From Methanothermococcus thermolithotrophicus DSM 2095 (GTDB lineage: Archaea; AGJL01; Methanococci; Methanococcales; Methanococcaceae), in assembly GCF_946463545.1 (NCBI RefSeq), contig NZ_OX296583.1, positions 1,215,035 through 1,279,034 on the forward strand: a DNA stretch of 64,000 nucleotides, written 5' to 3'. Positions within the stretch are counted from its first letter, which is position 1, and each line of letters opens with the position of its first letter. Made by a program: the position numbers and the translations under genes. The notes under the pieces were generated by a model, which saw nothing but the letters and a program-made list of their open reading frames with translations, was not told where the DNA came from and made no database searches. Of this stretch, positions 388 to 20,518 are shown piece by piece.

Positions 388-3300
388 TTAAGGCTTCTCA
401 ATTTTCACTACTTTATCATCCTGCCATTCTACAAATACTGGTTCATCCGGAATGTCATCCAATGTTTTGAAGTATTCCACTGCTGCCTTTGTTCCCCATC
501 TATCTGAACCTGCTAATAGTATTACTGTATGTCCATTTATTAGCTGCTTTTGGATAACCCCTTTATGAGCTCCTGGGTAGTCGTTGGTTACTTTTACTTT
601 AAAGGTCCATGCGTATTTTTTAACTAGTGGGTTTGCTACTGGTCCCCCAACTAAGATGCAATCTTCGGTTATTCCCAATGATTTATTTACCAATTCAGTG
701 GTATTTTTAAGGCATTTTGCTGATAAGTTGTCGTCTGTTTCTGAACCTATTATTAGTTTGTATTTATGAACTATTTCTTTTATTTTTTCTGATTTAATAT
801 CATCTGCTACATTTGGATATTTATCTACAGCTCTATGTCTGGAGCCTGATGATGTTGATGATATTTTAGTTGTTTCAGTGGTTGGCAGTGCTGCAGCAAG
901 TATAATATTTACCTCTGGGTCTTTGACTAAGGTTATTTCCAATACTCCTTCAACAGGTATTCTATACCACCCTATTTTACCAGTGATATCGTTTTCTTTT
1001 AAAGTTATATTTTCTGTTCCATTATTTACGGTTATATCTTCAACATCCAAAGTTCCTATTGGGATTCTTATTATTGAAAATCCTTTATTTGAGGTGTTTA
1101 TTGCTTTGAATTTTATCGTAGATATTAATTTATTATTTTCTTTTTTAGCTTCTTCTTTTGTTATGTTTGTTATGTTGAATCCTTCATTTAGGATTGGTTT
1201 AACCTCTGATAATATATTATCAATTGTTTTATTCATCTCGTTTTCATCGTTAATTTTAGTGTTTTTAAGTTCAGTAGCTTTCTGCGTCACTTCTTTTAAA
1301 GTTTTAATATGTTCTCCGGTAAAGTTTATTGATATGTTTTCAAGATGGGGTATCTCAATACTATCATTTTTTACTGGAATTACTGTTATATTAAGGCCTT
1401 TTCCAGATATTATTTTTACATTATCTAAATCAACGTCCTTCAATGCCTCAGAATCCATATTAATATGTTTCAATGCTTCTTTTAATTCTTTCCCCATAAT
1501 TGTGTTGTTTATAAATATTTTCTTAAATTTATATCCTTCACAATCTGACAATGTAGCATGTTTTAGTATTACTGAATATGTATTATTTTCATCAATGAGT
1601 TTGAATGTTATATTTCCAATATTGAATTTTCCAGATTCTGTGAAGTTATAACCGCTTATAAATAGACTGTCATTATTTACACTCCAATTAACTATGCCAA
1701 TTCCACTTACATTTAAAATTTCGATATTTTTAAAGGTTAGGTTAATATCATAACCACTACAAGGTCTTTTAGAACTTATAGATTCTGTATCAATAGATGC
1801 CACAATAGTTCCATTAGTTTCAGATGTATTATATAATTTCAAATAAACAGGTACTTCAACAACTTTTAAGTTTTTAACCAGTTTATTATCGCTTTCATTT
1901 TCTTCTTTAATGACATTTGATTTATCAACTACTGCAACAATTGTATATATTCTTGTATCATCCGGTGTCCAATTAAAGCTTACTGTTTTTGTTTCTCCAA
2001 TATTTAATGAATCAACAGTTTTTACTCCCAAGTCCTTTGAATCTATGTATAAATGAACATCAAATGATTTATTTGCTATATCCTGATGACCATTGTTTGT
2101 TAATGTTATATTTATTGTTGTCGGCATTCTATATATTGATGGATTTGAAATTTCCATATCGATGATTTTAATGTTTGGTCCCTGAACTACAACAGTTTTT
2201 GGATTAATAACTATATTATTAAATTTGTATCCATTTATATCGGATACTACAACTCCATCTAACCCAATTTCTGAGTTTCCAACATCCAATGCCTTAAAGG
2301 TTGCTTTTGCAATGGTTGTTGATGTGTTTATACTTCCATCCATTATACTGAATACAACTTTTCCATCTTCAAAGGTAATGTTTTTAAGGTTTTCTGACGC
2401 GTTTATTAAGAACGTAAAGTTTGCGCATTCCAATATTTTTGAATCGTAGGTTAAAACTCCATCCATCCCTTTTACAGGTCTGTTTGCTGTAATGCTGTCT
2501 AATGATATATTAACAGTAAATGTTTCATCTGTTTTTGTTAGGTTTGTTGATGGGATTAAGTTTAATGCGATAGGTTCTTCAACTGATTCAACTGTTTTTA
2601 TATATTTGTTATTGTTTTCATTAATTTCTTTTATTTCTCCATTTGAATCAACTACGGTAACAATTGTATAGTTTTTATTTTCTATCGGCATAAATGTAAA
2701 GTTTATGTTTTTTGTTTCTCCAACATTTAATCCTGTAATGGTTTTTGTTCCAAGGTCTTGGGAGTCAATATACAATACTACTGAGAAATTATTTGAAGCG
2801 TTTCTTTCACCGATATTTTTAATTGTAATTGATATTGTATTATTTTGATATGATTTTAAGTTTGACACTAAAATATCAGTAATTGTTAAATCTGATCCAG
2901 GAATAATTATCTTTGTGATATCTGAATTTTTAACAACGCTGTAACTTTCATTATCCTTGATAGTAACATCCTTTAACTGAGTTGTGGTGTTTCCAACATT
3001 TATTATGTTATAAGTAATATTTACTGTGAAATTTGTTGATTTATTAAGGCCATCTATTTTAAAGAAGTCATTTGAGGTATTAAACAAAACAGTCCCTGCG
3101 CTTGATGATATATTAACCGGTGTTATTATTGTTTTATCGTAGCTCAGCGTTCCACTAATTTCACTTAGAGTTTCATTTTCTTTTGGGGATATGATTATTG
3201 GAACGGTTATATTCTCTCCGAGCTCACCACTTACAGTTGCAGGGGTTATTATATCAGCTATTGGTTTTAGTAGTATTGTTATGTTTGAGTTTTTTAGAGT

Positions 3301-3741
3301 TAATGGTTCAATATGGAACCCATTTACATCAGACATGACAGTTCCGCTTAATGATACTGCTCCACTTCCCTCATTTAATGTATTAAATGAAAGAGTTGCT
3401 ATTGTGAAGTTTCCTGTAAAACTATTACTAAACCATAATGAAATCCAAATTTTTCCATTAGATACAGTTATATCATCTTTAGTTGTATGTCCACTTATAT
3501 CTTTTAGGACGATATTACTTTCAGATATATTCATCATACTTGAGTTATAATTAATATATGTCTCAAAGCCCTCGCACCCGGTATCGTTTGGGACATTTTT
3601 TACAACTAAATCCAAATTAAATGAATCCCCAGTATATGCATTTACATTGTCTGGGACTAATTCTACTGATACATCTTCTGCATAACACATCCCAATTAGA
3701 GAAATCATCAAAACCGAGAGTGTAAAAAACTTCCACTTCAT
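388..3741 (-). CDS. Secreted cohesin/CARDB scaffold protein with S-layer-type C-terminus
   Basis: This 1117-residue protein has a Sec signal peptide (about 1-21). A cohesin-like domain follows at about 22-156, starting VSVELVPDN. A second beta-rich, probably cohesin-like module lies at 163-280. CARDB domains lie at about 282-385 and 522-628, and further cohesin-like modules at 390-512 and 630-745. The last 130 residues resemble the C-terminal domain of methanogen S-layer proteins (ILVGGPVANPLV near 1029, LLAGSDRWGTKAAVEYF near 1075). NxS/T sequons are abundant, as in glycosylated archaeal surface proteins. I infer a surface scaffold that binds the dockerin-bearing proteins encoded next door. 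A GGTGA ribosome site lies just before the ATG. The cohesin assignment is by pattern and by near identity of the first domain to that of the protein at 6930-9011. Which modules really bind dockerin cannot be told from sequence alone. Confidence 0.82.
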   Translation of the reverse strand: MKWKFFTLSVLMISLIGMCYAEDVSVELVPDNVNAYTGDSFNLDLVVKNVPNDTGCEGFETYINYNSSMMNISESNIVLKDISGHTTKDDITVSNGKIWISLWFSNSFTGNFTIATLSFNTLNEGSGAVSLSGTVMSDVNGFHIEPLTLKNSNITILLKPIADIITPATVSGELGENITVPIIISPKENETLSEISGTLSYDKTIITPVNISSSAGTVLFNTSNDFFKIDGLNKSTNFTVNITYNIINVGNTTTQLKDVTIKDNESYSVVKNSDITKIIIPGSDLTITDILVSNLKSYQNNTISITIKNIGERNASNNFSVVLYIDSQDLGTKTITGLNVGETKNINFTFMPIENKNYTIVTVVDSNGEIKEINENNNKYIKTVESVEEPIALNLIPSTNLTKTDETFTVNISLDSITANRPVKGMDGVLTYDSKILECANFTFLINASENLKNITFEDGKVVFSIMDGSINTSTTIAKATFKALDVGNSEIGLDGVVVSDINGYKFNNIVINPKTVVVQGPNIKIIDMEISNPSIYRMPTTINITLTNNGHQDIANKSFDVHLYIDSKDLGVKTVDSLNIGETKTVSFNWTPDDTRIYTIVAVVDKSNVIKEENESDNKLVKNLKVVEVPVYLKLYNTSETNGTIVASIDTESISSKRPCSGYDINLTFKNIEILNVSGIGIVNWSVNNDSLFISGYNFTESGKFNIGNITFKLIDENNTYSVILKHATLSDCEGYKFKKIFINNTIMGKELKEALKHINMDSEALKDVDLDNVKIISGKGLNITVIPVKNDSIEIPHLENISINFTGEHIKTLKEVTQKATELKNTKINDENEMNKTIDNILSEVKPILNEGFNITNITKEEAKKENNKLISTIKFKAINTSNKGFSIIRIPIGTLDVEDITVNNGTENITLKENDITGKIGWYRIPVEGVLEITLVKDPEVNIILAAALPTTETTKISSTSSGSRHRAVDKYPNVADDIKSEKIKEIVHKYKLIIGSETDDNLSAKCLKNTTELVNKSLGITEDCILVGGPVANPLVKKYAWTFKVKVTNDYPGAHKGVIQKQLINGHTVILLAGSDRWGTKAAVEYFKTLDDIPDEPVFVEWQDDKVVKIEKP

Positions 3742-3809
3742 AATATATCACCCGATATTAAAAAATCAAAATAAATAGAAATAATTAGAATTAAATTAGT
3801 AATAATAAC

Positions 3810-5171
3810 TTAATTTGCAGTGTATGGGGTTGCTGTTCCAGTGTCTGGGTCATAACTAAGGAAGTAATGGGTGGTTCTTCCACTGAATGCATCTGGGTGT
3901 ATGATTGTTCCCAAATCCATTAATACTTCATCTGTATTCATAAGTCCAAATTGCCAGTAATCTTCACTTATACAGAATAATTTACCATTCTGAACTGATT
4001 TAAATAAGTCATATCCAGGATGGTCATTTTTGAAGTTCGATAGCCAGTTTGTATTTGATGGCACGACCCAAATATCGGCACCTTTTGCTCTTTCGGCAAA
4101 TGTTTCATAGTCAATCTTTGCACTGCCTGTTCCAGGATAATCACTGAATATATAGTTCCCATGACAGTCATCCATTATTCCCTTAGCTATATAGGATTGA
4201 GCTTTAGGTACATAGGTTCCACCATAGGATGGGTAATTTTTACCCCATGCAACTAGAACAGGTTCTTTGCCTCTTGTTAATCTTCTAACATTTAATGCCT
4301 TCTTTTCAACCTTTGTGAAGTATTTGCTTGCCATATCTTCTTTATTGTAGTATGCTGCAAACATCTTGACCCATTCACATCTTGCGAGATATGAATCTTC
4401 TAAATATTCTGCATTTGCGATATAAGTAATATTCAAATCGTTACATTTTGCAATAATGGCATCCCCACTGTATCCTGGATATACTAATACCGCCTGTGGA
4501 GATATGTTTATTATTATATCATAATTTGGACTGTATGATGAACCAACGTCAACTATGGAGCCGTTATCAAGCCCTTGTTTAATATCGTCGAAATACCATG
4601 TGTAGCCTCCACCCCACATGATTCCTTTAACTGAATCAATTACTGAACCATCACTGTTTAATGGTTGCATTAGTGCTATATGAGTAGAGCTCATTACAAC
4701 TACATTTGTCAATGGAACATTTAGGATTTTATCATATTTTCCATCAGTCCAGGTTGGTATGGATTGAGATGCATTTTTTAATAAGAATTTCTGCCCTGTG
4801 GCATCTTCAACTATTTTATATGAGTATGCATCGCCGTTGTATGGATTTACTTCATTTCCATTTTCGTCATAGTATGTAATCTTTATATTTTTGGCATAAT
4901 GGATAGGTTTTCTCAGACTGTCATAGTTTTTGAACAGATATACCACATCGGCAATATCTATTGAATTATCACAGTTCAAATCTCCATCTTCAAGGTTGAG
5001 ATTTCTATTTTTGAACAGATATACCACATCGGCAATATCTATTGAGTTGTCTGCATTTACATCGCCTAATCTGTGGTTGTAATCCCCATTTGCAAATGAA
5101 GGAGATATACATATTAATAAAGATAATACACTAAGTATTATCATAAGATGAGTATTTATATTTTTCGACAT
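3810..5171 (-). CDS. Dockerin-tethered FecB/BtuF-type substrate-binding protein (1)
   Basis: A 453-residue secreted protein. The signal peptide (1-27) has no lipobox Cys. A type I dockerin follows at about 35-85, with two calcium loops, DVNADNSIDIAD and DLNCDNSIDIAD, each followed by VVYLFKN. From about 90 to the end it is a periplasmic-binding-protein type 2 domain of the iron-chelate/cobalamin class. Landmarks include SPQAVLVYPG, WVKMFAAYYN and DYPGTGSAKIDYETF. The dockerin takes the place where a lipid or membrane anchor would be expected. I therefore infer that this binding protein is docked on the neighbouring cohesin proteins and feeds the FecCD-type permeases at 10732-12928. The start has a GGTGATGTAAT ribosome site. 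The ligand is unknown; a metal chelate or corrinoid/tetrapyrrole is likely by family. Confidence 0.85.
   Translation of the reverse strand: MSKNINTHLMIILSVLSLLICISPSFANGDYNHRLGDVNADNSIDIADVVYLFKNRNLNLEDGDLNCDNSIDIADVVYLFKNYDSLRKPIHYAKNIKITYYDENGNEVNPYNGDAYSYKIVEDATGQKFLLKNASQSIPTWTDGKYDKILNVPLTNVVVMSSTHIALMQPLNSDGSVIDSVKGIMWGGGYTWYFDDIKQGLDNGSIVDVGSSYSPNYDIIINISPQAVLVYPGYSGDAIIAKCNDLNITYIANAEYLEDSYLARCEWVKMFAAYYNKEDMASKYFTKVEKKALNVRRLTRGKEPVLVAWGKNYPSYGGTYVPKAQSYIAKGIMDDCHGNYIFSDYPGTGSAKIDYETFAERAKGADIWVVPSNTNWLSNFKNDHPGYDLFKSVQNGKLFCISEDYWQFGLMNTDEVLMDLGTIIHPDAFSGRTTHYFLSYDPDTGTATPYTAN
4921..5063 (-). repeat. Dockerin-coding 143-bp block identical to 9227-9369
   Basis: Read on the minus strand, these 143 bases match 9227-9369 on the plus strand without a single mismatch, while the flanking binding-protein sequences have diverged strongly. 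Inside the block, a roughly 40-base unit encoding NSIDIADVVYLFKN occurs twice with one base difference. Recent duplication or gene conversion of the dockerin module is the simplest reading. Confidence 0.9.
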
Positions 5172-5472: not shown

Positions 5473-5502
5473 AAATAAATATTAAAATATGAACGTGATA
5501 TC

Positions 5503-6063
5503 ATGAAAAAAATAATATTGGTTATTGCCCTGTCCATTCTGTTAATCCCCATGGTTTTGGCAGATGATGTAAGTCTAAATGTAAATATGCCTAACGAAGT
5601 AAATAAAGGCGATAATTTTACTATCAATATAGATGTTAATGTAAAAAATAAGGATATATCGGGTTTTGAATGCACAGTGAAAATCCCTATCGAAAACGTG
5701 GACAATATAAATATAACAAGTATCACAGGAAACGAAGAAATAAAAAAAGAAGCAGGGAAATTCTATGAAATTAAAAAGAAAGATTCATTAGTATCTATAA
5801 GATTTGCCACTTTTGGAACGCCATTGAATTCAGATTTTCATTTAATGACCATAAACGCAGTAGCTTTAAAAGAAGGTAATGTATCATTTACATTTGAATC
5901 AATAGCATCTGATGAAAATGGACAAAGGATTCCTGTTGATAAAAAAACAACTGATTTAATAATAATCGACAATAACAACAAAACAGTTGAATCCAGTGAA
6001 AATTTTTTATCATCGATAATTAACGCTATAATGAATTTTTTAAAATCCATACTCGGTGGTTAA
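5503..6063 (+). CDS. Small secreted cohesin-like protein
   Basis: A 186-residue protein with a signal peptide (1-20, MKKIILVIALSILLIPMVLA) and one cohesin-like beta domain (about 21-155). The opening DDVSLNVNMP, the GFECTVKI strand and the ASDENG segment parallel the cohesins of the neighbouring proteins. The C-terminus (about 166-186) is hydrophobic and could touch the membrane, but is short for a standard anchor. GTGAT lies before the ATG. It is the first gene of a tightly coupled trio: its stop codon abuts the next start. I infer that it is a dockerin receptor; the fold is assigned by resemblance only. Confidence 0.7.
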   Translation: MKKIILVIALSILLIPMVLADDVSLNVNMPNEVNKGDNFTINIDVNVKNKDISGFECTVKIPIENVDNINITSITGNEEIKKEAGKFYEIKKKDSLVSIRFATFGTPLNSDFHLMTINAVALKEGNVSFTFESIASDENGQRIPVDKKTTDLIIIDNNNKTVESSENFLSSIINAIMNFLKSILGG

Positions 6064-6933
6064 ATGAATATAACTAAATTATTAATTATATCTATTTTTT
6101 TTGTATTGTTTACTGAAAATTTTGCACTAGATGATATTGTTGTGAGATTAACCCCCGATAACATAGAAACGAGTGGAGATTTGGTAAATTTTAATATTAC
6201 AGTAGAAAATATACCTCCAAAGGAAAGTTTAGGTGTGCCCTCATCGTATACTGACCCAGAAATAAAGGACGGTGGATGTCAAGGTGTAGATATTTATATA
6301 AACTATTCAAAGGATTATTTAAGCCCCATTGGATTTAATTGGAGCGATAAGTGTAAGGATGTTAAAATAAAGGAATATAAATTCGAAGATGGAATTTTTT
6401 ATTTATCAATAATGTTTAATGAGATAATATATGATAATACTGTAAACCTCGGGACAATAACCTTCAACCCCATAAAAAAAGGAGAAACTACATTAAATGT
6501 TAGCGGTAAGGTGAGCTCCGAATGGGGCATTAAATATGATGAGGATAATAAGTATTGGCGTAATTATGGTGAAACGTCACAATATAAAGAGCCCTACCCT
6601 GACACTAAATTCTATGGTGCAACAGTAAATATTAAGGAAATAGGAAATTACACAGGTTCTACTAGTTTAAGCGGAGAATTGAATGAAAATGCAATTTCAT
6701 CATCACCTTCTTCATCGACAATAATCAACAAGGTAAATGTAATTGCAAACCAAAATGCGCCCGAAATTGTTGTAAAGGAAATAAATATTTCAGAAGAGAA
6801 GCCGAATATAACGATTATAATAAATACTGATGGAAAAAATGGTTTGGATTACAACCTGTTAATATCTATTTTTGTTGGAAGCATTTTATCTGGAATCACA
6901 TTTGGATTATTATTTAGAAGGATGATACTATGA
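6064..6933 (+). CDS. Membrane-anchored cohesin-like protein
   Basis: A 289-residue protein with a signal peptide (about 1-21). A cohesin-like domain follows at about 22-195 (DIVVRLTPDNIETSGD, GGCQGVDIYINYS), then a Ser/Asn-rich linker. One transmembrane helix lies near the C-terminus (about 263-284), followed by a short basic tail (RRM). Its ATG directly follows the previous stop codon, which indicates translational coupling. The layout of secreted domain, linker and anchor suits a cell-surface receptor for the dockerin-bearing binding proteins. Binding specificity is inference from context. Confidence 0.7.
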   Translation: MNITKLLIISIFFVLFTENFALDDIVVRLTPDNIETSGDLVNFNITVENIPPKESLGVPSSYTDPEIKDGGCQGVDIYINYSKDYLSPIGFNWSDKCKDVKIKEYKFEDGIFYLSIMFNEIIYDNTVNLGTITFNPIKKGETTLNVSGKVSSEWGIKYDEDNKYWRNYGETSQYKEPYPDTKFYGATVNIKEIGNYTGSTSLSGELNENAISSSPSSSTIINKVNVIANQNAPEIVVKEINISEEKPNITIIINTDGKNGLDYNLLISIFVGSILSGITFGLLFRRMIL

Positions 6934-9011
6934 AATACATAATTTTATTTCTATCCTTTTTTGTTTTTTTATCGGGAGTATGTGGTGAAAATGTATCCGT
7001 AGAATTAGTTCCAGACAATATAAATGCGTATGTTGGAGATACATTCAACTTAGATTTAGTTGTAAAAAATATCCCTACTGATAGGAAATGTGGTGGATTT
7101 GAAACTACAATATCTTATGATTCAAGTATTTTGAATTTAACAAATATTGCGTTAAGTGATACGTCCAATACTGCAAATTTAAAAGAAGTGGATGTTTCAG
7201 CTGGAAAGATAAAATTATTATGGACGTCAAATGAACCCTATGGTAACTTTACAATAGCAACACTATCATTTAATGCGTTAAAGGATGGAAATGATTCAGT
7301 AGATTTAACTCAAACTTCCGTATCTGATGTAAATGGAGTAAAATATTATATAACTTTAAAAAACTCAAACATAACAATAAATCCATTAAACCAGACTTTA
7401 GGAACCATTACATTGAAAGATTTTGAACTGAATAAAAATATTGATGCAGTTTTATCTATAACTGGAGCAAAAACTCCTATAAAGAATATTTCAGGTAGCA
7501 TTTCATTCAAGAATATAACAATAGAAAACAGTCCTACTCTGATGGATATATTTTGTAATAATTTCAGCTATACCATATATAATAACAATATTTCATTTTT
7601 TATTATTCCAAATGAAAAGGACGAAAATAAAACCATATTCAATCTTTTAAAAATACCTGTGAATGTCAATGATGCTAACTATAATATTTCAATGGACTTA
7701 ACGATAAATGGGGAGCAAATCAAGAACATAACAATAAAAACGGAAGAAAAACAGGAAAATATCTCAGAGTATAAAGGGTTGGTATTCTATGTAGATTCTG
7801 GATATAATGAAGAAACAAATATCTCAATAGGTTATTCAAAAGAAATTAAATTAAAAGTATATAATATTGACAAAAATTTAACAAATTTTTCAGGATATAT
7901 TTTCATAAATAGTTCCTTATTTGATGTTTCAGATTATGGAATTCCAGAATATTCTGCCATATATAATAGGATAAACACATCAAATATTACATTAAATAAC
8001 AGCCACTTGTATTTCAATATTTCGCTAACAAACGGGACAAACGGGACATTTAGTATTTTAAAGTTTAAATTATCTTCAAAGATTAATGAGAATATATCTT
8101 CAATAATATATCTTGAAAATCTATCCATATACGCAAATGATACAAAAATAAACTTATCGATTAAAAATTTAACAGTGAATATTGTAAAAAGGGAATCCAA
8201 CAACCCGCCAAAATTAAAAATAGTCTACAAAATAGTTAATAACAAAGAAGTCCATTTTTATGCCTTAGGCTATGACGAAGATAACGACGATTTAAAATAT
8301 GTATGGGATTTTGGAGATGGGAAAAACTCAACAGACGAAAATCCAATTCATATATATTCAAATTATTCGATATATAAAATAGGATGTATTGTTAAGGACC
8401 CATTAAATGGAACAGATAAAGTGGAAGGGATTATATCTATTAAAAATATTAATCCAGTAAATTATTCAATTTCCAATGATTCATTCATGTTGGACAAACA
8501 AAATGAAAATAAAACCATTTATTTGAATATAACCTTAAAAAATCCATTAATTCATAATGTTGATGGATATATCAATTTTGTAGATTATGGCGATAATTAT
8601 CGTCCACTAAAAACCCAGTATCAAGTTATATTAAAGCCAAATGGAACAAAAAATCTTATTATTCCAATAAATGTGTCAAAATCATGTGAAATTAAATGGA
8701 ATGTCGTATATTATCCTAATATACGAAGTGATACAAGAGATAGCATAGACTTCAAATTCTATCAATGGGATTTTGAAAAAAAGATAGAATTCAAATCCAA
8801 ACCCCAAGTGGTAATAAATAATTATACAAAAATCATAACCCTCAACAATACAAAGATAATATTAAAAGTAAATAAAGTTGAGACCGTTAAAAACTATGTT
8901 ATAAACAAAACCCTAACAACTACAAGTCAAAACTCTATGCCATATTATACATTTGCTTCATTATTTGGATTTATCATAGGCATCATATTAATTAGATTTA
9001 AAATTAAATAA
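6930..9011 (+). CDS. Membrane-anchored multi-domain cohesin/PKD surface protein
   Basis: A 693-residue protein with a signal peptide (1-19). Its cohesin-like domain at about 20-150 is nearly the same as the first module of the scaffold at 388-3741 (NVSVELVPDN, FNLDLVVKNIP). Two further beta domains follow at about 155-270 and 275-425, then a PKD domain (about 430-515, VWDFGDGKNSTDENP). Another beta region precedes a C-terminal transmembrane helix (about 671-689) ending RFKIK. It overlaps the previous gene by ATGA. Many N-glycosylation sequons are present. It probably projects a cohesin away from the membrane so that dockerin-bearing solute-binding proteins can be held near their permease. Confidence 0.75.
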   Translation: MKYIILFLSFFVFLSGVCGENVSVELVPDNINAYVGDTFNLDLVVKNIPTDRKCGGFETTISYDSSILNLTNIALSDTSNTANLKEVDVSAGKIKLLWTSNEPYGNFTIATLSFNALKDGNDSVDLTQTSVSDVNGVKYYITLKNSNITINPLNQTLGTITLKDFELNKNIDAVLSITGAKTPIKNISGSISFKNITIENSPTLMDIFCNNFSYTIYNNNISFFIIPNEKDENKTIFNLLKIPVNVNDANYNISMDLTINGEQIKNITIKTEEKQENISEYKGLVFYVDSGYNEETNISIGYSKEIKLKVYNIDKNLTNFSGYIFINSSLFDVSDYGIPEYSAIYNRINTSNITLNNSHLYFNISLTNGTNGTFSILKFKLSSKINENISSIIYLENLSIYANDTKINLSIKNLTVNIVKRESNNPPKLKIVYKIVNNKEVHFYALGYDEDNDDLKYVWDFGDGKNSTDENPIHIYSNYSIYKIGCIVKDPLNGTDKVEGIISIKNINPVNYSISNDSFMLDKQNENKTIYLNITLKNPLIHNVDGYINFVDYGDNYRPLKTQYQVILKPNGTKNLIIPINVSKSCEIKWNVVYYPNIRSDTRDSIDFKFYQWDFEKKIEFKSKPQVVINNYTKIITLNNTKIILKVNKVETVKNYVINKTLTTTSQNSMPYYTFASLFGFIIGIILIRFKIK

Positions 9012-10713: not shown

Positions 10714-10731
10714 ATAGTTATGGGTGGAATT

Positions 10732-11781
10732 TTGAAAGTTAAAAGATTTTTGGGATTGTATATATTATCTTTAGTATTGTTGGTAATTTTATCTTATTTT
10801 AGTATTGCAGAAGGGACAATTCCAATAAAAGATGAACAGTTGGAAAAATATTTATTAGAAGGAACTACTGGAAATGTAATTATGGATCAAATTATAGAAA
10901 AATTAAGACTTCCAAGGGTTGTTGGAGCAATTGTTGTTGGATTAGGTATTGCCGTGGCAGGGATTTTAATGCAAGGGTATTTTAGAAATCCACTGGCAGA
11001 CCCCTATTTAATGGGTGTGGCAAGTGGAGCATCTCTTGGCGTTGTTTTGTATGTTTTTACATCGTTATTGTTTAAAATGGGGGTTCCTCGTTCAATATAT
11101 GGATTTATTATCTCTGCGTATATTGGCTCATTAGCCACCATGGTTGCTGTTATAAATATGGCAAGAATTGTAAAGCAAACTGCAACATTATTGATTTGCG
11201 GTATTATGATAGGAGCAATAGCATCTGGATTAACCACGCTTGTTGTATATACTGGGGATTATATGGGTGAAGAAAATTCCAAACTCGCAGAGTATTTAAT
11301 GTGGGGGATGGGCTCACTTAACAATTTAACATGGGGCCAGATTAAGATTATGACGATTGTAATAATTCCAACAGTTATTTTAACTTACATATTTTTTTCA
11401 AAAAAACTTGATGCAAACCTTCTTGGAGAGAAATATGCCATAAGTGTTGGAGTAGATGTAAAAAATTTAAGAAAATGGCTGATAACATTATCCTGCATAT
11501 TGACGGCAACTGTTGTATCATTTACAGGGCCTATTGCCTTTGTAGGGTTGGTATGTCCCATTATGGCAAGAATGATTTCTGGCACCTCAAAGCACATCTA
11601 TGTAATACCTATGACGGCTTTATTGGGTTCTATATATGTGCTATTTGCAGATATACTAACAAGACCTGGAGTAGTAATACCACAGACATCCAACAATATT
11701 CCACTATTGGCTCCATTATCCATAATCGGAGCTCCGATTGCTATAATTGTATATCTAAAAGTTAGAAAAATGGGAATATAA
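10732..11781 (+). CDS. FecCD/BtuC-family ABC permease (1)
   Basis: A permease of the iron-siderophore/cobalamin (FecCD, BtuC) class with about ten membrane helices and usual length (about 350 residues). Family landmarks are [23 protein letters not shown]-type N-terminal signature, [19 protein letters not shown], and the cytoplasmic [15 protein letters not shown] loop that contacts the ATPase. An in-frame ATG lies at 10720 without a ribosome site. GGGTGGA at 10722-10728 points to TTG at 10732 (MKVKRFLG) as the true start. It is followed after 16 bases by a second, different permease, so a heterodimeric channel is possible. The substrate is probably that of the dockerin-borne binding proteins. 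Confidence 0.9.
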
Positions 11782-11797
11782 AATTTAAAAATGGGAT

Positions 11798-12928
11798 ATG
11801 ATGAATTATAGATATGTTATAATTTTAGCTTTACTTGTTTCAGTGGTTGGATTATTTATTACTGGGGTGTATTTTGGTGGAAATGCCAAATCAATTACAA
11901 TAGATGATACTACAAATTTTGTTATATATCAAACAAAAAGTACGGTGGATTCCATATATTATAAAATAACTGGGAAGCATATTTTTCCCCAAACTCCATT
12001 GGATGAAAGTACTAAATTTAAATATATCATATTAAAAAAATATCGTTTACCACCAATTGTTGGAGCAATTCTTGTGGGTTTAACGTTATCAACATGCGGT
12101 TTAATGTTGCAGACATTATTTAGAAATCTTTTATCATCCCCATATACGACAGGTATCTCAAGTGGAGTTTTATTTGCTGTTACACTTGTTATATTTATAT
12201 ATAGTTTTGCAGAACTATTTTCAACCTTTAAAGTAGATGAAAATATAATAGCAGGATGGTGTGGTGGATTATTATCACTAATCATGCTTATTATTATAGC
12301 CCTTAGGGTTAAAGAAGTAAATGGAGTTTTGATTGTTGCTCTGTTAATGAGTTACCTATTTAGGGGAATAAGTGCATATCTAATGGCAAATGGAACAGAT
12401 TTTACAATTCAGGAGTATTATACGTTCATTATTGGAAATGTAGCGAGAGTTAATGTAAATAATATATTTCAGATGGTCATATCCACAATAGTATTTATAA
12501 TTGGGAGTATTTTTTTAATAAAACCATTAAACGCCCTGTTATTTGGTGAAACCTACGCAAAAAGTTTTGGGTTAAATGTAAAAAAGATTAGAATATTGAT
12601 ACTATTATTGGCATCATTTATTGTAGGGGTTATAATTCCGTATGTTGGGTTAATGGCATTTGTGGGTATTGCAGCACCATATTTGGCAAGACCTATTATA
12701 AGAACCTCAGACCACAGGTGGCTACTGCCTGCAACTATGCTTGTTGGTGTGGTGTTGATGCTCATGTGTCATATTATTTCATTGAAATACTGGGTCCCCA
12801 TCTTTTACCTGTATAATATAGACCGTCCAGCTCAGGTTTTACCAATAGGCTCCATCCTTGACGTACTAGGTGGATTACTGGTAATATATTTAGTATATAA
12901 TGGTGAAAAAAAGATAAGAATACAATAA
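11798..12928 (+). CDS. FecCD/BtuC-family ABC permease (2)
   Basis: The second FecCD-type permease (376 residues, about ten helices). It contains LPPIVGAILVGLTLSTCGLMLQ-type and RNLLSSPYTTGISSGVL signatures and a GLMAFVGIAAPYLARP ATPase-contact loop. It diverges clearly from the first permease, with a longer periplasmic segment after helix 1. Two tandem ATG codons open the frame; no strong ribosome site is seen, so translation may be coupled to the upstream gene. The paired permeases could form a heterodimer or serve one binding protein each. The likely ATPase is encoded convergently at 12988-14127. Confidence 0.88.
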   Translation: MMNYRYVIILALLVSVVGLFITGVYFGGNAKSITIDDTTNFVIYQTKSTVDSIYYKITGKHIFPQTPLDESTKFKYIILKKYRLPPIVGAILVGLTLSTCGLMLQTLFRNLLSSPYTTGISSGVLFAVTLVIFIYSFAELFSTFKVDENIIAGWCGGLLSLIMLIIIALRVKEVNGVLIVALLMSYLFRGISAYLMANGTDFTIQEYYTFIIGNVARVNVNNIFQMVISTIVFIIGSIFLIKPLNALLFGETYAKSFGLNVKKIRILILLLASFIVGVIIPYVGLMAFVGIAAPYLARPIIRTSDHRWLLPATMLVGVVLMLMCHIISLKYWVPIFYLYNIDRPAQVLPIGSILDVLGGLLVIYLVYNGEKKIRIQ

Positions 12929-12987
12929 ATAATAAACATGCAAAAAAATAAACAATAAAATAGATTTGATTATTCTTCAATTAATCA

Positions 12988-14127
12988 TTATTCTAACATC
13001 TCTTTTAAAGATTTAATATTTCCATCATATTTTATTACCTTCTTATTCGTATTAATCGCATGTTCAACAAGTTTTTTATTTAAAATATTGGTCTGCCCCA
13101 CTGGAAAATCCGTATATATAACTACATCAGATGTTCTGAGCTCATGTAATGCCTTTTCAAATTTTTCATTTGATATGGGTTCATAAGGCTCTTCGCATAT
13201 TATCTCCAATTCCATGGTTTTTGCCACAATATAATCTATATCATTTTTATGTAATATTCCTACAACCACATCGTATCCATTCTTAGTAAGAAATCTTAAC
13301 ACATCAACACCTGTCCCTGCACCACAAACTAAAAAAATCCTATTATAACCCCCAAATCCAGAATTTGCATTTTTTAGTTCAAAATAACCTATTATTTCGT
13401 TGTAATTTGCATTATCCAAATCATAAAGATTATTTACGATTTCTTTTTTCATAACATCCTCTGGATGTCCGTATGCTATTACCCTGTGGTTTTTTATTAA
13501 TGCCATTTTATCGGCTATCCTCAGAGCGAGCTCTATATCATGAAGTGTAACAATTATTGCTAAATTATTTTCTGTTGCAAGTTTTCTCAGTAAAAGAGTC
13601 AGTTCAATTTTATGTTTTGCATCCAAAAAACTCGTTGGCTCATCCAGTATGAGAGCGTTAGGTTTCTGAGCAAGAGCTCTTGCTATCATTATCTTCTGTC
13701 TCTCCCCATCACTCATTTCAAAAAAGTTTTTATTTAATAGATACTCGGCATTTACAGATTTTGCGGCATGTGTGATTATTTCCTTATCCTTTTCGGTTAA
13801 TCTACCAAATAAATCAGTGTAAGGGTGCCGTCCAATGGCGATAATATCATATCCAGTCATATTTCCCGGATTTACTCGCTCAGTTAATACCACTGCCATT
13901 TCCTTTGCAAGTTTTTTTGGCGTTAAACTATGTATATTTTGACCATTTAAATAAACTACCCCCTTTTTAGGTTTTAAATATGTTGCTATGGTTTTTAGAA
14001 GTGTGGATTTACCTGCACCATTTGGACCTATGATGCACAGTATTTCTCTTTCCTTTATATGTAAATTCACATCTTCAACTACAATATAATTTTTATATCC
14101 TACAGTTAAATTCTCAGTTTTTAACAT
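12988..14127 (-). CDS. ABC transporter ATPase, FecE/BtuD type, with extra C-terminal domain
   Basis: A 379-residue protein. Residues 1-255 are a standard ATPase of metal-chelate/cobalamin importers, with Walker A GPNGAGKS (34-41), signature MSDGE (138-142), Walker B ALILDE (158-163) and switch His 196. About 120 residues (258-379) extend beyond the usual FecE length. They begin IFLVCGAGTGVDVLRFL and look like a Rossmann-type nucleotide or ligand-binding domain, possibly regulatory. GTGAT precedes the ATG. It converges with the permease genes, leaving 59 bases between. I infer that it powers those permeases, since no other ATPase of this type lies near. Confidence 0.88.
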   Translation of the reverse strand: MLKTENLTVGYKNYIVVEDVNLHIKEREILCIIGPNGAGKSTLLKTIATYLKPKKGVVYLNGQNIHSLTPKKLAKEMAVVLTERVNPGNMTGYDIIAIGRHPYTDLFGRLTEKDKEIITHAAKSVNAEYLLNKNFFEMSDGERQKIMIARALAQKPNALILDEPTSFLDAKHKIELTLLLRKLATENNLAIIVTLHDIELALRIADKMALIKNHRVIAYGHPEDVMKKEIVNNLYDLDNANYNEIIGYFELKNANSGFGGYNRIFLVCGAGTGVDVLRFLTKNGYDVVVGILHKNDIDYIVAKTMELEIICEEPYEPISNEKFEKALHELRTSDVVIYTDFPVGQTNILNKKLVEHAINTNKKVIKYDGNIKSLKEMLE

Positions 14128-14504: not shown

Positions 14505-17500
14505 TTATTTAATGGCCAAATTTTCCTTTAATTTATCTTTCCATGTTAAATCAATATCAATGCCCCCGCCTTGGAAGTCTCCAATATCAACATCTCCGTA
14601 GGTGTCCTCAATATCTCCTTCAATTTCCATATAAATTCTTTTTAATTCTTCAAGGTTCTCTTCACTTGTTTTCCAAAGGCCTCTTTGATATGCCTCCAGC
14701 AATCTCCTACTAATTTCTTCTAATGCATAGATGTTGTTTTCTTTAAAGAATTTCCTATTTTCCTCATTTTTCACATGGGTGTTGAATATCTCATCAAAAA
14801 CCCAATTATCAACCTCTTTTGTTGTGGCACTCCATCCAAATACTCTTCCAACTCTCTTCGCTATATCTCCTGCCCCTTTATAATCATGTCTTTTCATCCC
14901 TTCAATCCACTTTGGATTTAAAAGTTTTGATAAGGAAACCCTCTCTATCTCCTCCTTTAAAGTCCTTATCTCAACTTTATTTGGATTTCTCGTATCCTCA
15001 TAATAGACCTTAACATCCTTTTTTGAAATGACCCTTGCAGCATTTGTTAATCCACCATGCGTTCCAAAATAACTACAGCATCCAAATAAATCATATTCAT
15101 CAGTAACGGTTTTGTTAAATGTCAAGTCAACACTCTTTAAGATACTTTCAAATGCATCCTTTGCAAATGTTCCGTGAACATTTTTTCCATAAGCATATGA
15201 GTTCCAAAGCATGAATGCATCCTTTAAATCTTCCTCATTTTCCCATGCACTTGAATATATTGCATATTTAACCCCATTCCCATAAGTCCCTGGTTTTGAA
15301 CTGAATATTCTATATGTTGCTTCTCTGAGGGATAACTCCTTCTCTAAACCTTCTAACACATGTTTTTTAACAAAATTCATCTCTATTGGTTCATCTAACT
15401 TTGCCACTTTTGTTATTGCCTCATCAACAATTTCTATACAATTTGGGAAATTATCTCTCAAAATCCCACTAACCCTTATAGTCACATCAATTCTCGGTCT
15501 TCCCAACTCCTCCAATGGAATAACTTCTACACCAACAATCGTCCCATGTTTCCATTTTGGTTTAACCCCTAATAGATGAAGAATTTGTGCCATCCCCTCT
15601 CCATCAGACCACATAATATCTGATGCCATCCAATAACTAGCAACGTTTTCAGGATATTTACCATTTTCGTTGATATATTTTTCAATCAACTTCTCAGCCA
15701 ATAAAACTCCGACCCTATATGCTGCCTTTGTTGGAATCTTATACGGATCAAGAGAATAGAAGTTCCTTCCAGTTGGAAGAATATCATCCCTTCCTCTTGT
15801 TATTAATCCAGATGGTCCCGGTTCTATATATTTTACATCAATGGCATTTAAAAGTGCATTTATTTCCTTAGATTGTTCTAATCTTTCATTTATATCAAAT
15901 ATTTTTTCTTTTAATTCATTATCCTCAATATTTATTCCATCTAATACGTTTTTTATCTCATCTTGCAACTTTCTTTTATATTCAAACTCCAAAATGGTAT
16001 TTATAAATTCAACTTTTCTTTCCCCGCTTGGTAGTTCCCCAAATATATGCATACCATCATTTATCTTTGAATTCTTTATCATTTCCAAGGTATTTCTCAA
16101 TTCATCAAAGATTTCCTTAAAGTTTGAATGAATTGAGTAAGACTCTTCGAGTTTTGCAGCTCTCCGCTTTGCTCCGATATCACCTTCTTTTGAAATATTT
16201 TCTATTTTCTCCTTAATTTTTAATAAGTTGGTTTTCTTTACTTCTTCAATAATTAAATGCTCTAACTGATGCCTTCTTGATGTATTCATATCTTTTAGAT
16301 ATTCGTTTACATAATTATCTAGGGTTTCAAGTTCTTCATTCATTGCATCGGTCATTACCGTTTGCATGTGGTCAATTAATACTGCATAACTTCTTCTCTT
16401 TGCAATAGTTCCCTCTGGTGGGTTATCTGAGTTGTAAATGTATAAGTGAGGAATGTCATTTATGCAGATATCTGGATAACATTCATTTGATAAACCAACA
16501 TTCTTCCCAGGCAAAAATTCCAAAGTACCGTGGGTTCCAACATGAACTATAACATCAGCAATCTCACTGAAATACTTATATGTGGCAATGTATTGGTGTG
16601 TTGGTGGGCATTCTGGGTCGTGCAAAATTTTGCATACGTTTCCATCACATCTTGCTCCCGCACAACCTCTCTTTGGTTGAACGCAGACATATATATTTCC
16701 AAATTCTAAGCCAGTTATGACAATCTTGTTTTTTCCAGTACTGTCTTTATAAATCATAGATGCTGGGATATCTTTTCCATTTAAGTCTCCCCACGTATCT
16801 AAAACCTTCTTTTTAACGTTTTCTGGAAGTGTCTTGAAGTATTCCATATACTCTTCTTCATCCATTAGGTATAGATGGCCTCCTTTTGCAATAATCTCAT
16901 TTACAGTCGTCCATCTAAATTCGGAGATTGCCTTTTTGTCTAATATCAATTTTGCCAATTCGTTTCCATTTTTGGGAATATTTTCAATACAATAACCTTC
17001 CTCGTTCATCTTTTTCATTATTCTTATCAAACTTTCAAATGAATCCAAATGTGCAGCACTTCCAACCGTTGCCTCAACAGATGCACATGCAGCATTATGC
17101 AAAACAAATATGACTTTTCTATCTTTTTTTGGTTTGTTTTTTAATTCCATCCATTTTTTTATTCTTTTAACTACTTTATCAATCCTATCATCTATTGGCA
17201 TTTTCTTTTCCAAGTTCCCCTCCTTATGTACGGTTCCAATTAAAATTGGTTCTATAACCCCTTCAAATTCAGGTAAGGCAATTGTCCACCCTATATCCGC
17301 AGATAATCCTTGTATGTCATTTTTCCATTCTTCGTAGGTTTTGTAGTAGCTCACTATTGGATGGAAAACAGGGATGTTGAGTTTTTTTAGGACATCTATT
17401 CCTTGCAATTTCTTTAAACTGCCTTTTTCAACGACCGTTCCCAATGGAAAAGATAGTAAATTTATTAATGTATCTATTATTGGTTTTTCATTCTTAAAGA

Positions 17501-18170
17501 AGTATTTTAAGATACACTCTCCCCCTCCTATGGCATTTAAATCTTCATTTTTTGCCCCATAAGAAAAAACAGGAATTATATTAAAGTATTTTTCCAATTT
17601 ACTTATCAGGGCATTTATAACGCCCATATCTTCATTCATAAGATAATGTCTTGAAAATAAAACCCCTATGGTATTCTTTTTATTAAAGTCTGCATTATTT
17701 AAAAATTCATCCAGATTCTCAAAGATTTCTCCCCTATAAAATATACCTTGGAAGGGTAGTTCTTTTGGTGGAGATAGGGGGAGGGCCATGTTTAAGGTTT
17801 CTTTTATAAGGTACATAATGAGATTTTTGAAATTTTCAACTCCTCCGTAAACCGTATATAGATATGCTTTGTGAGATAGCTTTGAGTTCCAATATGTGGG
17901 ATCTTGGCTTGTTACTATTAAATTTTTGAATTTATTGGCACTAATATCTTCATAAAAATCATCAGTGGAAGTTCTATACATAAAAACAATATCCGACTTT
18001 TTTGCGTCATTTAAAAAATCGTCCAATTTATCTGGCATATCTTTTGTTGAATATAGTCTTAAATCAACATTTAAATGAGATAATTCTTTTTTTAATTCAT
18101 CCCATGCTTTGTTTAATATGGAGCAATAGGATGCCCACATTAGGGTAGTTATAGTTATGGTTTTAGACAT
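14505..18170 (-). CDS. cobN: CobN/BchH-family metal chelatase large subunit
   Basis: This 1221-residue protein matches the CobN/BchH/ChlH family over its length. The most conserved block lies at about 498-560: VQPKRG, then HDPECPPTHQYIA, then HVGTHGTLEFLPGKNVGLS (543-562). Later landmarks include PTGRNFYSLDP and SYWMASDIMWSDGEGMAQIL. An unusual feature is a Cys cluster, C503-x4-C508-x4-C513-x7-C521, inside the core block; it could hold an iron-sulfur cluster or zinc. The partner AAA+ and von Willebrand subunits are encoded divergently. CobN proteins insert cobalt in the aerobic B12 pathway, yet methanogens use the anaerobic route and have CfbA for F430. Its role here is therefore open; processing of an imported tetrapyrrole, as proposed for HmuS-type CobN homologues, is attractive. 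The start is set by GGTGATTAT. Confidence 0.88.
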   Translation of the reverse strand: MSKTITITTLMWASYCSILNKAWDELKKELSHLNVDLRLYSTKDMPDKLDDFLNDAKKSDIVFMYRTSTDDFYEDISANKFKNLIVTSQDPTYWNSKLSHKAYLYTVYGGVENFKNLIMYLIKETLNMALPLSPPKELPFQGIFYRGEIFENLDEFLNNADFNKKNTIGVLFSRHYLMNEDMGVINALISKLEKYFNIIPVFSYGAKNEDLNAIGGGECILKYFFKNEKPIIDTLINLLSFPLGTVVEKGSLKKLQGIDVLKKLNIPVFHPIVSYYKTYEEWKNDIQGLSADIGWTIALPEFEGVIEPILIGTVHKEGNLEKKMPIDDRIDKVVKRIKKWMELKNKPKKDRKVIFVLHNAACASVEATVGSAAHLDSFESLIRIMKKMNEEGYCIENIPKNGNELAKLILDKKAISEFRWTTVNEIIAKGGHLYLMDEEEYMEYFKTLPENVKKKVLDTWGDLNGKDIPASMIYKDSTGKNKIVITGLEFGNIYVCVQPKRGCAGARCDGNVCKILHDPECPPTHQYIATYKYFSEIADVIVHVGTHGTLEFLPGKNVGLSNECYPDICINDIPHLYIYNSDNPPEGTIAKRRSYAVLIDHMQTVMTDAMNEELETLDNYVNEYLKDMNTSRRHQLEHLIIEEVKKTNLLKIKEKIENISKEGDIGAKRRAAKLEESYSIHSNFKEIFDELRNTLEMIKNSKINDGMHIFGELPSGERKVEFINTILEFEYKRKLQDEIKNVLDGINIEDNELKEKIFDINERLEQSKEINALLNAIDVKYIEPGPSGLITRGRDDILPTGRNFYSLDPYKIPTKAAYRVGVLLAEKLIEKYINENGKYPENVASYWMASDIMWSDGEGMAQILHLLGVKPKWKHGTIVGVEVIPLEELGRPRIDVTIRVSGILRDNFPNCIEIVDEAITKVAKLDEPIEMNFVKKHVLEGLEKELSLREATYRIFSSKPGTYGNGVKYAIYSSAWENEEDLKDAFMLWNSYAYGKNVHGTFAKDAFESILKSVDLTFNKTVTDEYDLFGCCSYFGTHGGLTNAARVISKKDVKVYYEDTRNPNKVEIRTLKEEIERVSLSKLLNPKWIEGMKRHDYKGAGDIAKRVGRVFGWSATTKEVDNWVFDEIFNTHVKNEENRKFFKENNIYALEEISRRLLEAYQRGLWKTSEENLEELKRIYMEIEGDIEDTYGDVDIGDFQGGGIDIDLTWKDKLKENLAIK

Positions 18171-18200
18171 ATAATCACCATAAAAATCTCATACTTTTAT

Positions 18201-18214
18201 TATTCTAATCATAT
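18201..18214 (-). promoter_or_regulatory. 14-bp motif upstream of cobN, shared with dockerin gene
   Basis: ATATGATTAGAATA on the minus strand, 31-44 bases before the cobN start. It is identical in sequence and spacing to the site at 5202-5215. Confidence 0.45.
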
Positions 18215-18246
18215 TATTTAATGAATATTATTACTATTTATATTTT

Positions 18247-18260
18247 ATGATATTTATCAT
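18247..18260. promoter_or_regulatory. Palindrome ATGATA-TT-TATCAT
   Basis: A perfect inverted repeat in the middle of the divergent chelatase promoter region. This is the kind of site bound by a dimeric metal regulator, though in DNA this AT-rich chance is not excluded. Confidence 0.3.
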
Positions 18261-18440
18261 GATTAATAATTATAAATTAGGTTTTAATACCAATTAGTAA
18301 AAAAGATTATAAGATTCATAAAAATATTTATTAAGTATTACGTAATTCATAATAATTTTGTGATTGTATGAAATGTTATTTATATAAGAAATTAAAATAA
18401 ATTTGTGTAAATATAAAATACATTTAAATTAGGTGAGAAG

Positions 18441-19520
18441 ATGAATTATTCATTTACTGCAATTGTTGGGCAGGAAAAAATGAAACAGGCGCTGGTCTTA
18501 AACGCAATAAACCCAAAAATTGGGGGAGTTTTAATAAGGGGAGAGAAGGGAACTGCAAAATCTACAACAGTAAGAGCTCTGGCTGATTTATTGCCAGAAA
18601 TTGAGGTTGTTGAAGGATGTCTATTCAACTGTGACCCCAATGGGGATTTGTGTGATGTATGTAGAGAAAAGAAGGAACGGGGAGAATTAAAAACAATTAA
18701 GAAAAAGATGAAGGTTGTTAACCTCCCAATTGGTGCTACGGAAGACAGGGTTATCGGAACACTTGATATTGAAAAAGCAATCAAAGAAGGGATTAGAGCT
18801 CTTGATTCAGGAATTTTGGCTGAGGCAAATAGGAATATTTTGTACATTGACGAAGTGAATCTTTTAGATGATCATATTGTTGATATCCTTTTAGATGCTG
18901 CTGCAATGGGGTGGAATGTTATTGAGAGGGAGGGGATAAAGATTAAGCATCCCTCACGATTTATCTTAGTTGGAACAATGAATCCAGAAGAAGGGGAGTT
19001 GAGGCCTCAGATCCTTGATAGGTTTGGGTTGATGGTGGATGTTGATGGATTAAACGATATAAAGCAGAGAGTTGAGGTAATAAAGAGAGTTGAAGAATTT
19101 AATGAAAATCCGGAAGAATTTCATAGAAAATATGAGGAAGAGCAATTAAAGTTGAGGGGGAAGATAGAAAGGGCAAGAGAATTATTGAATAATGTAAAAA
19201 TAAATGATGATTTATTGGAACTAGTTTCAAAGATTTGTATTGAATTAGGTATTCCAACAAATAGGGCAGATATAACCGTTGCAAGGACGGCAAAAACCAT
19301 TGCTGCATTTAATGGAAGGGATAATGTAACTGTTGACGATGTAAAAAAGGCATGTGAGCTTGCCCTCTTACACAGAATGAGGAGGAAGCCGTTTGAACCA
19401 CCACAATTAAACAAAGAAAAGATCGAGCAAATATTTAATGAGTTTGAGGAGAAGAATAAAGAAAAAAACGAAAATGAAAATGAAGGTAATAACAAAGAAG
19501 ATGAAGTAAAAAAAAACTAA
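18441..19520 (+). CDS. chlI: ChlI-type AAA+ chelatase subunit
   Basis: A 359-residue AAA+ ATPase of the BchI/ChlI family, the motor subunit that drives CobN/BchH-type chelatases. Walker A is GEKGTAKS (34-41), Walker B ILYIDE (133-138), and a conserved [21 protein letters not shown] sensor region lies near 176-196. Four Cys (60, 64, 71, 74) form a small insertion that may bind zinc or a cluster. After about residue 330 the sequence becomes a Glu/Asn/Lys-rich tail and stops at 19518. That tail continues in the -1 frame into the ChlD part (see 19511-19517), so this product is probably the short form of a ChlI-ChlD gene. GGTGAGAAG precedes the ATG. Confidence 0.9.
19511..19517 (+). promoter_or_regulatory. 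Slippery heptamer A AAA AAC for -1 frameshifting
   Basis: The zero frame reads GTA AAA AAA AAC TAA. The heptamer A-AAA-AAC is in the correct phase and is followed directly by the stop codon. A -1 slip continues with CTA AAT GAA AGT, which is exactly the open ChlD frame. Programmed frameshifting that makes ChlI-like and ChlD products from one gene has been described for chlD genes in cobN-bearing genomes. No convincing downstream stem was identified by eye. Confidence 0.7.
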
Positions 19521-20518
19521 ATGAAAGTAATAGTAGGGATGAAAATAATAACGAAAATAGAGAACATCCCGAAAACCATGAAAACGATAATAAAAACAGT
19601 GACAACAATGAAAGCAACAATAACGAAAATAGCGACATTGGAGATGGGGATAGGACATTTGGTATAAATGGAAGGGTAAATCCAAAAATTCTTAACATAA
19701 AGTTGAGGGATAATCTATACAGGTACAGTAGCGGGAGGCACATAAGGAGCATCAGCAAAAAAGGAAGATATATACAATACCGAATTCCACATGGGAAAAC
19801 AACCGATATTGCCTTTGATGCAACATTTAGGGTTAGTGCATTGTATCAAAAAGAGCGAAGAGAGAAATTTAAGGACAAAAATTTGGTATTATACTTAAAA
19901 AAAGAAGATTTAAGGGAGAAGGTTAGGGGGAGGAAGATATCATCTAATTTGCTGTTTGTTGTTGATGCAAGTGGTTCTATGGGTGCGATGAGGAGAATGG
20001 AAGTAGCGAAAGGAGCAGTTTTATCTCTCTTAATGGATGCCTATCAAAAAAGAAATAATGTGGGAATGATTGCATTTAGAAAAGATAGTGCAGAACTTGT
20101 TTTGCCTTTCACTTCATCTGTTGAACTTGGGGAGAAATTACTCAAAGAGCTCCCAACTGGAGGAAAAACGCCCCTATCAAAAGCATTTTTAAAGGCATAT
20201 GAGATTTTTAAAAATGAAATGAGGAAAAACCCAAACATAATACCTATTATGATATTTATCAGTGACTTTAAACCAAATGTGGCTATTAAAAAAGATTATA
20301 TAAGGGAGGTCTTTGATATTTGTGATAAAATTGCAGAGGAAGGAATAAATGTCATTTTAATAGACACTGAGCCAAAATCATTAATAAAAATAGGTATTGG
20401 AGATAAAATTGCCAAAAAATATGGGTTTGGATATTATAAGATAGATGATATTAATGTAGATGGAATTTTGGACATCGTTAACCCTTTAATGAATTATTAT
20501 GGCGGTGTGCAATTTTAA
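19517..20518 (+). CDS. chlD: ChlD part: acidic linker plus von Willebrand A domain
   Basis: This frame is open from 19517 and has no credible start of its own; a TTG at 19703 lies inside it and lacks a ribosome site. Read through from chlI by a -1 slip it gives a protein of about 692 residues, the normal ChlD/BchD size. The first 55 residues are an Asn/Glu/Asp-rich linker typical of ChlD. A von Willebrand A domain follows, with the metal-site motif DASGS (VVDASGSMG), the Thr in GGKTPLSKA, and FISDFKPN. It should form the middle subunit that bridges the ChlI ring and CobN. The alternatives are a real frameshift mutation or a sequence error in the nine-A run. Confidence 0.85.

Follow-up and report, generated by a model that had tools for sequence, protein, structure and literature searches.

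A predicted dockerin-cohesin mooring for the binding proteins of a likely corrinoid importer in Methanococcales

How can a substrate-binding protein (SBP) of an ATP-binding cassette (ABC) importer be kept at the cell surface when it carries neither a lipid anchor nor a membrane helix? The question is raised by a locus at positions 388-20518 of a 64,000-nucleotide stretch of Methanothermococcus thermolithotrophicus DSM 2095 (the window; G000:C1:1215035-1279034, in a genome of 1.7 Mb on one contig), where two SBP genes stand among genes for cohesin-like surface proteins, permeases, an ATPase and a chelatase. Cohesin-dockerin pairs are used by cellulose-eating bacteria to build enzyme complexes. 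We consider it probable that the locus encodes a corrinoid salvage importer, both SBPs of which are moored at the surface by dockerin-cohesin pairs rather than by a lipid anchor.

SBP1 (3810-5171, reverse strand) and SBP2 (9152-10417, forward strand) each have a signal peptide, a dockerin (residues ~35-85 and ~24-73, respectively) and a BtuF/FecB-type binding domain (Peripla_BP_2, 65.7 and 58.2 bits). No lipobox was found in either protein and no C-terminal hydrophobic helix by hydropathy, which confirmed the description in an earlier note on this DNA of two such SBPs with N-terminal dockerins and without another recognisable anchor. The single-sequence Pfam search gave a dockerin score of 13.7 bits for SBP1 (cut-off 22.9) and no call for SBP2; the family dockerin profile gave 111.8 bits for SBP1, whose own row is part of that profile, and 107.9 bits for SBP2. 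Compared with the PDB, the family profile picked out dockerins of known structure, with E values down to 3e-7 and <1e-5 for seven chains; other EF-hand proteins were among the weaker rows. The calcium-loop residues G2, D3, N5, D7 and D14, together with D30 and D41, were invariant in 18 rows. Judged by these motifs and profiles, the SBP dockerins are type I-like, with two putative calcium-binding loop-helix repeats, and are predicted to bind cohesin. Moreover, 42 of the 56 SBP rows longer than 200 amino acids from 28 genomes bore a dockerin; the other 14 comprised 10 with a lipobox (a pattern search gave nine, and that of G024 SBP1 was recognised by eye), three rows of a third paralogue with neither and one cut by a contig end, and no row had both dockerin and lipobox (0/56). 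Second copies of SBP2 were seen at G003:C19:7852-9048 and G009:C2:956994-958238; their frames are interrupted by one TGA and one TAG, which may reflect decay or recoding.

Four cohesin-type proteins are encoded beside the SBPs. The scaffoldin-like protein (1117 amino acids; 388-3741, reverse strand) has cohesin modules in three stretches (Pfam Cohesin 35.2 bits, cut-off 24.1), two CARDB stretches (121 bits) and a C-terminal S-layer outer-domain segment (S_layer_C, 42.3 bits); its orthologue in genome G006, 59% identical, received no Pfam cohesin call. COH693 (693 amino acids; 6930-9011, forward strand) has an N-terminal cohesin, a PKD domain (PKD_4, 39.6 bits) and a C-terminal membrane helix; its first domain reached 37.8 bits with Pfam Cohesin in a six-frame search, and hmmscan of the whole protein gave no Cohesin row. 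The profile built from the first domains of these two proteins (A3) matched 12 PDB chains, all cohesin or scaffoldin (best E 1.4e-8). COH186 (186 amino acids; 5503-6063, forward strand; one cohesin followed by a weak C-terminal helix) and COH289 (289 amino acids; 6064-6933, forward strand; a cohesin-like domain with a C-terminal membrane helix) were not themselves called as cohesins by Pfam. The hhalign comparison with the scaffoldin/COH693 cohesin profile gave 98.9% and 98.8%, respectively, and it is by this comparison that COH289 is termed cohesin-like. For COH186, the orthologue in G004 scored 37.8 bits with Pfam Cohesin (six-frame search), and the AlphaFold2 (AF2) model (predicted local distance difference test, pLDDT, 86.2) had 2vo8 as its best match (Z 15.9, root-mean-square deviation (rmsd) 2.7, 130 aligned). 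In its VIA comparison each of rows 1-26 was either a cohesin or a scaffoldin chain that contains one (Z 15.9-13.1; row 27, Z 12.5), and the non-cellulosomal archaeal cohesin 2xdh of Archaeoglobus fulgidus matched with Z 13.9 (rmsd 4.2, 131 aligned). COH186 is accordingly predicted from the model to have a cohesin fold. Every cohesin match of the genome, by our own profiles and by Pfam, lay inside this locus. In G009, further cohesin matches were seen off the locus (C2:490706-491023 and 498276-498575; 24.3 and 20.9 bits).

The C-terminal hydropathy was 2.24 for COH289, 1.94 for COH693, 1.29 for COH186 and 0.46 for the scaffoldin (maximum 19-mer), in which no C-terminal hydrophobic helix was found and the S_layer_C segment lies at the end. 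Among orthologues whose match reached past 90% of the length of the window protein, a hydrophobic C-terminus was present in all those listed for COH289 (12) and COH693 (11), and the COH186 orthologues had values of 2.49-3.07 in G006, G023 and G026 and of 0.57-1.46 in the nine others listed. We infer that COH186, COH289 and COH693 sit in the membrane and the scaffoldin in the S-layer.

Do SBP dockerins and cohesins go together in relatives? All 36 Methanococcales genomes of the sample were searched: 24 had both dockerin-SBP and cohesin, nine neither, one the dockerin only and two the cohesin only (Fisher p 5e-6, kinship being ignored; these groups and the CobN and CbiZ distances below were compiled by hand from the searches). 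G011, counted under "neither", does have a dockerin of the phosphatase type; the dockerin-only genome is G012, and the two cohesin-only genomes (G019, G020) are incomplete assemblies with partial SBP1 matches. Pfam Cohesin, checked in 14 of the 36 genomes, was above its cut-off in 4/4 cohesin carriers and 0/10 others, with weak scores in G002 (13.9 bits) and G032 (11.8 bits). Five genomes (G024, G027, G028, G029 and G033) had a lipobox on both SBP1 and SBP2 and no dockerin on either; cohesin was not found in them with two own profiles and Pfam, and they retained the permeases and the ATPase (split in G028). In a quick tree of the SBP bodies (no bootstrap, rows of <=310 amino acids excluded, one of two same-named G009 rows overwritten), the lipobox rows nested among the dockerin rows, for SBP1 and SBP2 alike, and outside Methanococcales a lipobox was recognised by eye in 19 of the 24 N-termini of relatives read. 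The simplest course of anchor history would be from lipid to dockerin and, in one lineage, back to lipid for both proteins, with loss of the cohesins. Thus the mooring of SBPs by dockerin and cohesin, suggested in the earlier note and still a prediction, is well supported by gene linkage, the cohesin fold, the co-occurrence and the five lipobox genomes without detected cohesin. The same gene set, which that note had proposed to look for in other Methanococcales, does recur there, and this repeated grouping in relatives makes chance unlikely.

The dockerin matches in 41 genomes (E <=0.01) were SBP1/SBP2 frames or fragments, frames of ~350-516 amino acids and one piece of 37 amino acids. The third dockerin protein of the window's genome is an alkaline phosphatase with a C-terminal dockerin (L001, G000:C1:1482377-1482538; 261.9 bits as alkaline phosphatase); its hit with the dockerin profile (A1) is by construction because that profile holds the phosphatase row. 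It is a possible third cargo for the cohesins. A cellulosome was considered and rejected, since no glycoside-hydrolase cargo was present among the dockerin matches of the 41 genomes (the one frame of ~350-516 amino acids tested was an alkaline phosphatase).

The dockerins of the two SBPs are also close to each other at the DNA level. The dockerin-coding parts of SBP1 (4921-5066, reverse strand) and SBP2 (9224-9369, forward strand) form the arms of a 146-bp inverted repeat and are 99% alike, compared with 56% for the gene bodies. The same homogenisation was found in G009 and G031 (99%) and in part in G004 (90%). In addition, when the scaffoldin and COH693 were compared, their first cohesin domains were 95% alike in G031, 93% in G015 and 69% in the window over the aligned part. 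The dockerin values fit gene conversion that in some lineages may keep one binding protein interchangeable with the other, and lend indirect support to the earlier suggestion that the SBPs are exchangeable.

The transport genes follow on the right. Permease 1 (FecCD/BtuC-type; 10720-11781, forward strand; FecCD 221.8 bits) had BtuC as its best NCBIfam model (170.2 bits, under the 334 cut-off), permease 2 (11798-12928, forward strand) scored 179.1 bits with FecCD, and the ABC ATPase (12988-14127, reverse strand; ABC_tran 105.5 bits), which has a C-terminal extension of ~130 amino acids, was best matched by the corrinoid model PRK09536 (220.2 bits over residues 1-358, under the 537 cut-off). Binding proteins, FecCD permeases and ATPase together make this a BtuCDF/FecBCD-type ABC importer. 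The C-terminal part of the ATPase (12988-13407) had no Pfam match and was mostly covered by the PRK09536 model.

Further to the right lies CobN, a class I chelatase large subunit (14505-18170, reverse strand; NF004643 2279.9 bits, cut-off 1926; CobN-Mg_chel 1200.8 bits), followed by ChlI (18441-19520, forward strand; TIGR02030 443.5 bits, cut-off 466.95) and the VWA-type ChlD frame (19505-20518, forward strand, open from 19505 with TTG at 19703 as the first listed start; VWA_2 53.8 bits, TIGR02442 241.7 bits); ChlI/ChlD matched TIGR02442, TIGR02030 and TIGR02031, all under the model cut-offs. The two frames overlap by 16 bases (19505-19520) in the -1 frame, with nine A's before the ChlI stop, and look like one frameshift-type chlD gene, an arrangement already known (PMC9227772). 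By these assignments the CobN large subunit, ChlI AAA and ChlD VWA proteins are a CobN/ChlID class I chelatase set, and all components listed in the earlier note (dockerin-SBPs, four cohesin-type proteins, two FecCD permeases, ATPase, CobN and ChlI/ChlD) are present. CobN lay <=15 kb from an SBP gene in 19/25 dockerin genomes and 1/5 lipobox genomes, and outside Methanococcales CobN, ChlI and ChlD occurred with the SBP gene in 7/39 loci (L125, L127, L130, L132, L133, L137 and L138; 59 SBP-relative loci were fetched, 39 of them outside the order). This conserved association supports the proposed tie between chelatase and importer. CobN of G015 reached 1021.9 bits with TIGR02257 (cut-off 822.05), and that of the G025 locus is broken into several pieces (L048:8678-11852). 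In seven genomes the other type of CobN is accompanied by the gene for a ferredoxin-like protein (143-167 amino acids; L041:3821-4255, L029:1584-2015 and five more loci), a possible electron source. A NifH-like protein stands by the SBP/ATPase genes in four genomes (L041:5873-6715, L047:8962-9801, L052:15541-16380 and L054:5451-6290); the one tested fits PRK13230 and is under the CfbC cut-off. In M. jannaschii a NifH-like gene is linked to F430 synthesis.

What, then, is imported? An RNA-family scan of 16 of the 39 non-Methanococcales loci found a cobalamin riboswitch in 10 (eight sense and upstream, two, L106 and L111, divergent) and none in L104, L121, L130, L133, L137 and L139; four of the seven CobN/ChlI/ChlD loci had one. 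CbiZ was confirmed for 6/6 bacterial candidate genes, five of them in CobN-bearing loci, and was present in 29/36 Methanococcales genomes, lying <=15 kb from the SBP genes in 7/25 dockerin genomes (G004, G008, G014, G016, G023, G025 and G034). Dehalobacter restrictus has a corrinoid salvage operon, operon-2, with a syntenic counterpart in Acetobacterium woodii; it combines a FepBCD/BtuCDE-type transporter with CobN, magnesium-chelatase subunits, CbiZ and a cobalamin riboswitch, and corrinoid starvation raised its transcript 346-fold and its proteins 46-fold on average (PMC4285132). From this context a corrinoid is the likely substrate, and a likelier one than haem. Haem had been the first choice and was placed behind corrinoid after the riboswitch and CbiZ results.

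On the corrinoid reading, secreted SBP1 and SBP2 would dock via interchangeable dockerins on membrane-tethered COH186, COH289 and COH693 beside the FecCD permease, and a further docking site would be the multi-cohesin scaffoldin held in the S-layer. Uptake of the corrinoid would be powered by the ABC ATPase, and CobN with ChlI/ChlD would then handle the metal of the imported ring by cobalt insertion, repair or exchange; we infer that the chelatase inserts or exchanges cobalt in salvaged corrinoids. A wider picture, which we offer as a doubtful but worthwhile conjecture, is a cellulosome-like organelle for nutrient capture, where a membrane and S-layer field of cohesins might display interchangeable dockerin SBPs (and alkaline phosphatase), the docked SBP might tune the loading of one ABC importer with its metal-swapping chelatase, and the anchoring of the whole set could switch between dockerin and lipid in evolution.

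Several observations weigh against the moored corrinoid importer. No CbiZ was found in the window's genome, and the RNA-family scan found no riboswitch in positions 1-24000 of the window. The nearest solved folds of the SBP1 model (pLDDT 92.8, predicted TM-score (pTM) 0.88) were the siderophore binders YiuA (Z 22.2) and CeuE (19.8); BtuF appeared in the Foldseek list only and was not among the best 50 VIA rows, which does not exclude BtuF. The missing CbiZ and the siderophore binders that head the fold comparison are why the corrinoid is called no more than likely. In the six dockerin genomes without CobN <=15 kb away, CobN was 76 and 101 kb off in two (G009 and G031), on other contigs in three and absent in one, and the CobN copies in neighbouring stretches were 74% (G004) or as little as 30-44% (others) identical to that of the window. 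G012 has an SBP dockerin and neither cohesin nor CobN in its genome, and the 20-kb stretch read there holds a shortened ChlI and no permeases; G011 has a phosphatase-type dockerin frame and no cohesin by our own profiles. Dockerin homogenisation was absent in G001, G003, G006, G007, G023, G025, G026, G030 and G034 (68-83%), and in 15 genomes no co-variation of dockerins with COH186 was left once the SBP bodies had been controlled for (partial r 0.03, p 0.39).

The rival that survives best keeps the mooring and takes the cargo to be haem or another iron or nickel tetrapyrrole, whose metal CobN would strip in the manner of HmuS, feeding iron or F430 metabolism. CobN and HmuS share a superfamily, in four genomes (G015, G024, G028 and G029) the NifH-like gene adjoins those for SBP or ATPase, the ferredoxin gene adjoins the other CobN in seven genomes, and the SBP fold best fits iron-chelate binders; however, a cobalamin riboswitch often governs the relatives in bacteria, which also carry CbiZ, the best ATPase model is a corrinoid one, though under its cut-off, and complete hmu operons are described as lacking in archaea (PMC12583661). 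We regard this cargo as unlikely. Import of siderophore or metallophore chelates, with CobN/ChlID as neighbours by history that serve other tetrapyrrole work, would agree with the siderophore-binder folds and with the unlinked CobN of G009 and G031, and appears quite unlikely given CobN <=15 kb in 19/25 dockerin genomes and the recurrence of SBP, FecCD, ATPase, CobN, ChlI and ChlD together in bacteria. That the dockerins bind other partners (SBP-SBP or other surface contacts) while the cohesins of the locus have a different cargo, for example alkaline phosphatase, is very improbable, for in spite of the dockerin phosphatase encoded elsewhere in the genome, the missing co-variation and the cohesin-less G012, all cohesin matches of the genome are in this locus and SBP-dockerin absence coincides with cohesin absence.

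The moored corrinoid importer has relatives in print. Dockerins on binding proteins of ABC transporters were reported in 2022 for anaerobic methane-oxidizing (ANME) archaea (PMC9012536), and dockerin and cohesin domains are abundant in ANME-1 and ANME-2a (PMC5244752); the earlier statement that no characterised transporter uses such mooring was therefore too strong. As in ANME, where dockerins sit on NikA/OppA- and TroA-type binding proteins and multi-cohesin proteins occur in the same groups, the cargo here is an SBP; unlike the genome-wide list of many dockerins given there, the present locus is compact and brings along cohesins, permease and chelatase of its own, each genome has few dockerin proteins and some genomes are anchor-swapped. 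In contrast to Dehalobacter operon-2, where CbiZ is found with the transporter (PMC4285132), CbiZ was not found in the window's genome; the words "dockerin" and "cohesin" are nowhere in the text of that paper, and the SBP relatives mostly carry a lipobox (the 19/24 read by eye).

The set resembles the bacterial cellulosome in having the dockerin on the cargo, a multi-cohesin scaffoldin and cohesins held at the surface, and differs from it in that the cargo is a transporter binding protein and Pfam matched no carbohydrate-binding module in the surface proteins. Like the HmuS haem de-chelatase of Bacteroidota, it would tie a class I chelatase large subunit to the uptake of a metallated ring (PMC12583661), whereas here ChlI/ChlD adjoin CobN. 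No paper recognisable as treating this locus was found in the open-licence PubMed Central (PMC) literature. Dockerin-SBPs as such were already known; new here are a locus dedicated to them, the swap of anchors and a dockerin common to both SBPs. If true, the mooring would give a concrete job to non-cellulosomal cohesin-dockerin pairs, and the two SBPs, on which dockerin and lipid anchor stand in for one another, offer a natural experiment. It also bears on the function of archaeal HmuS/CobN homologues, whose role is stated to be unclear in PMC12583661.

Beyond ChlD, a Gate-domain membrane protein (20746-21699, reverse strand; PF07670, 58.8 bits) is encoded, and its homologues stand beside the locus in nine genomes including that of the window, lipobox genomes among them.

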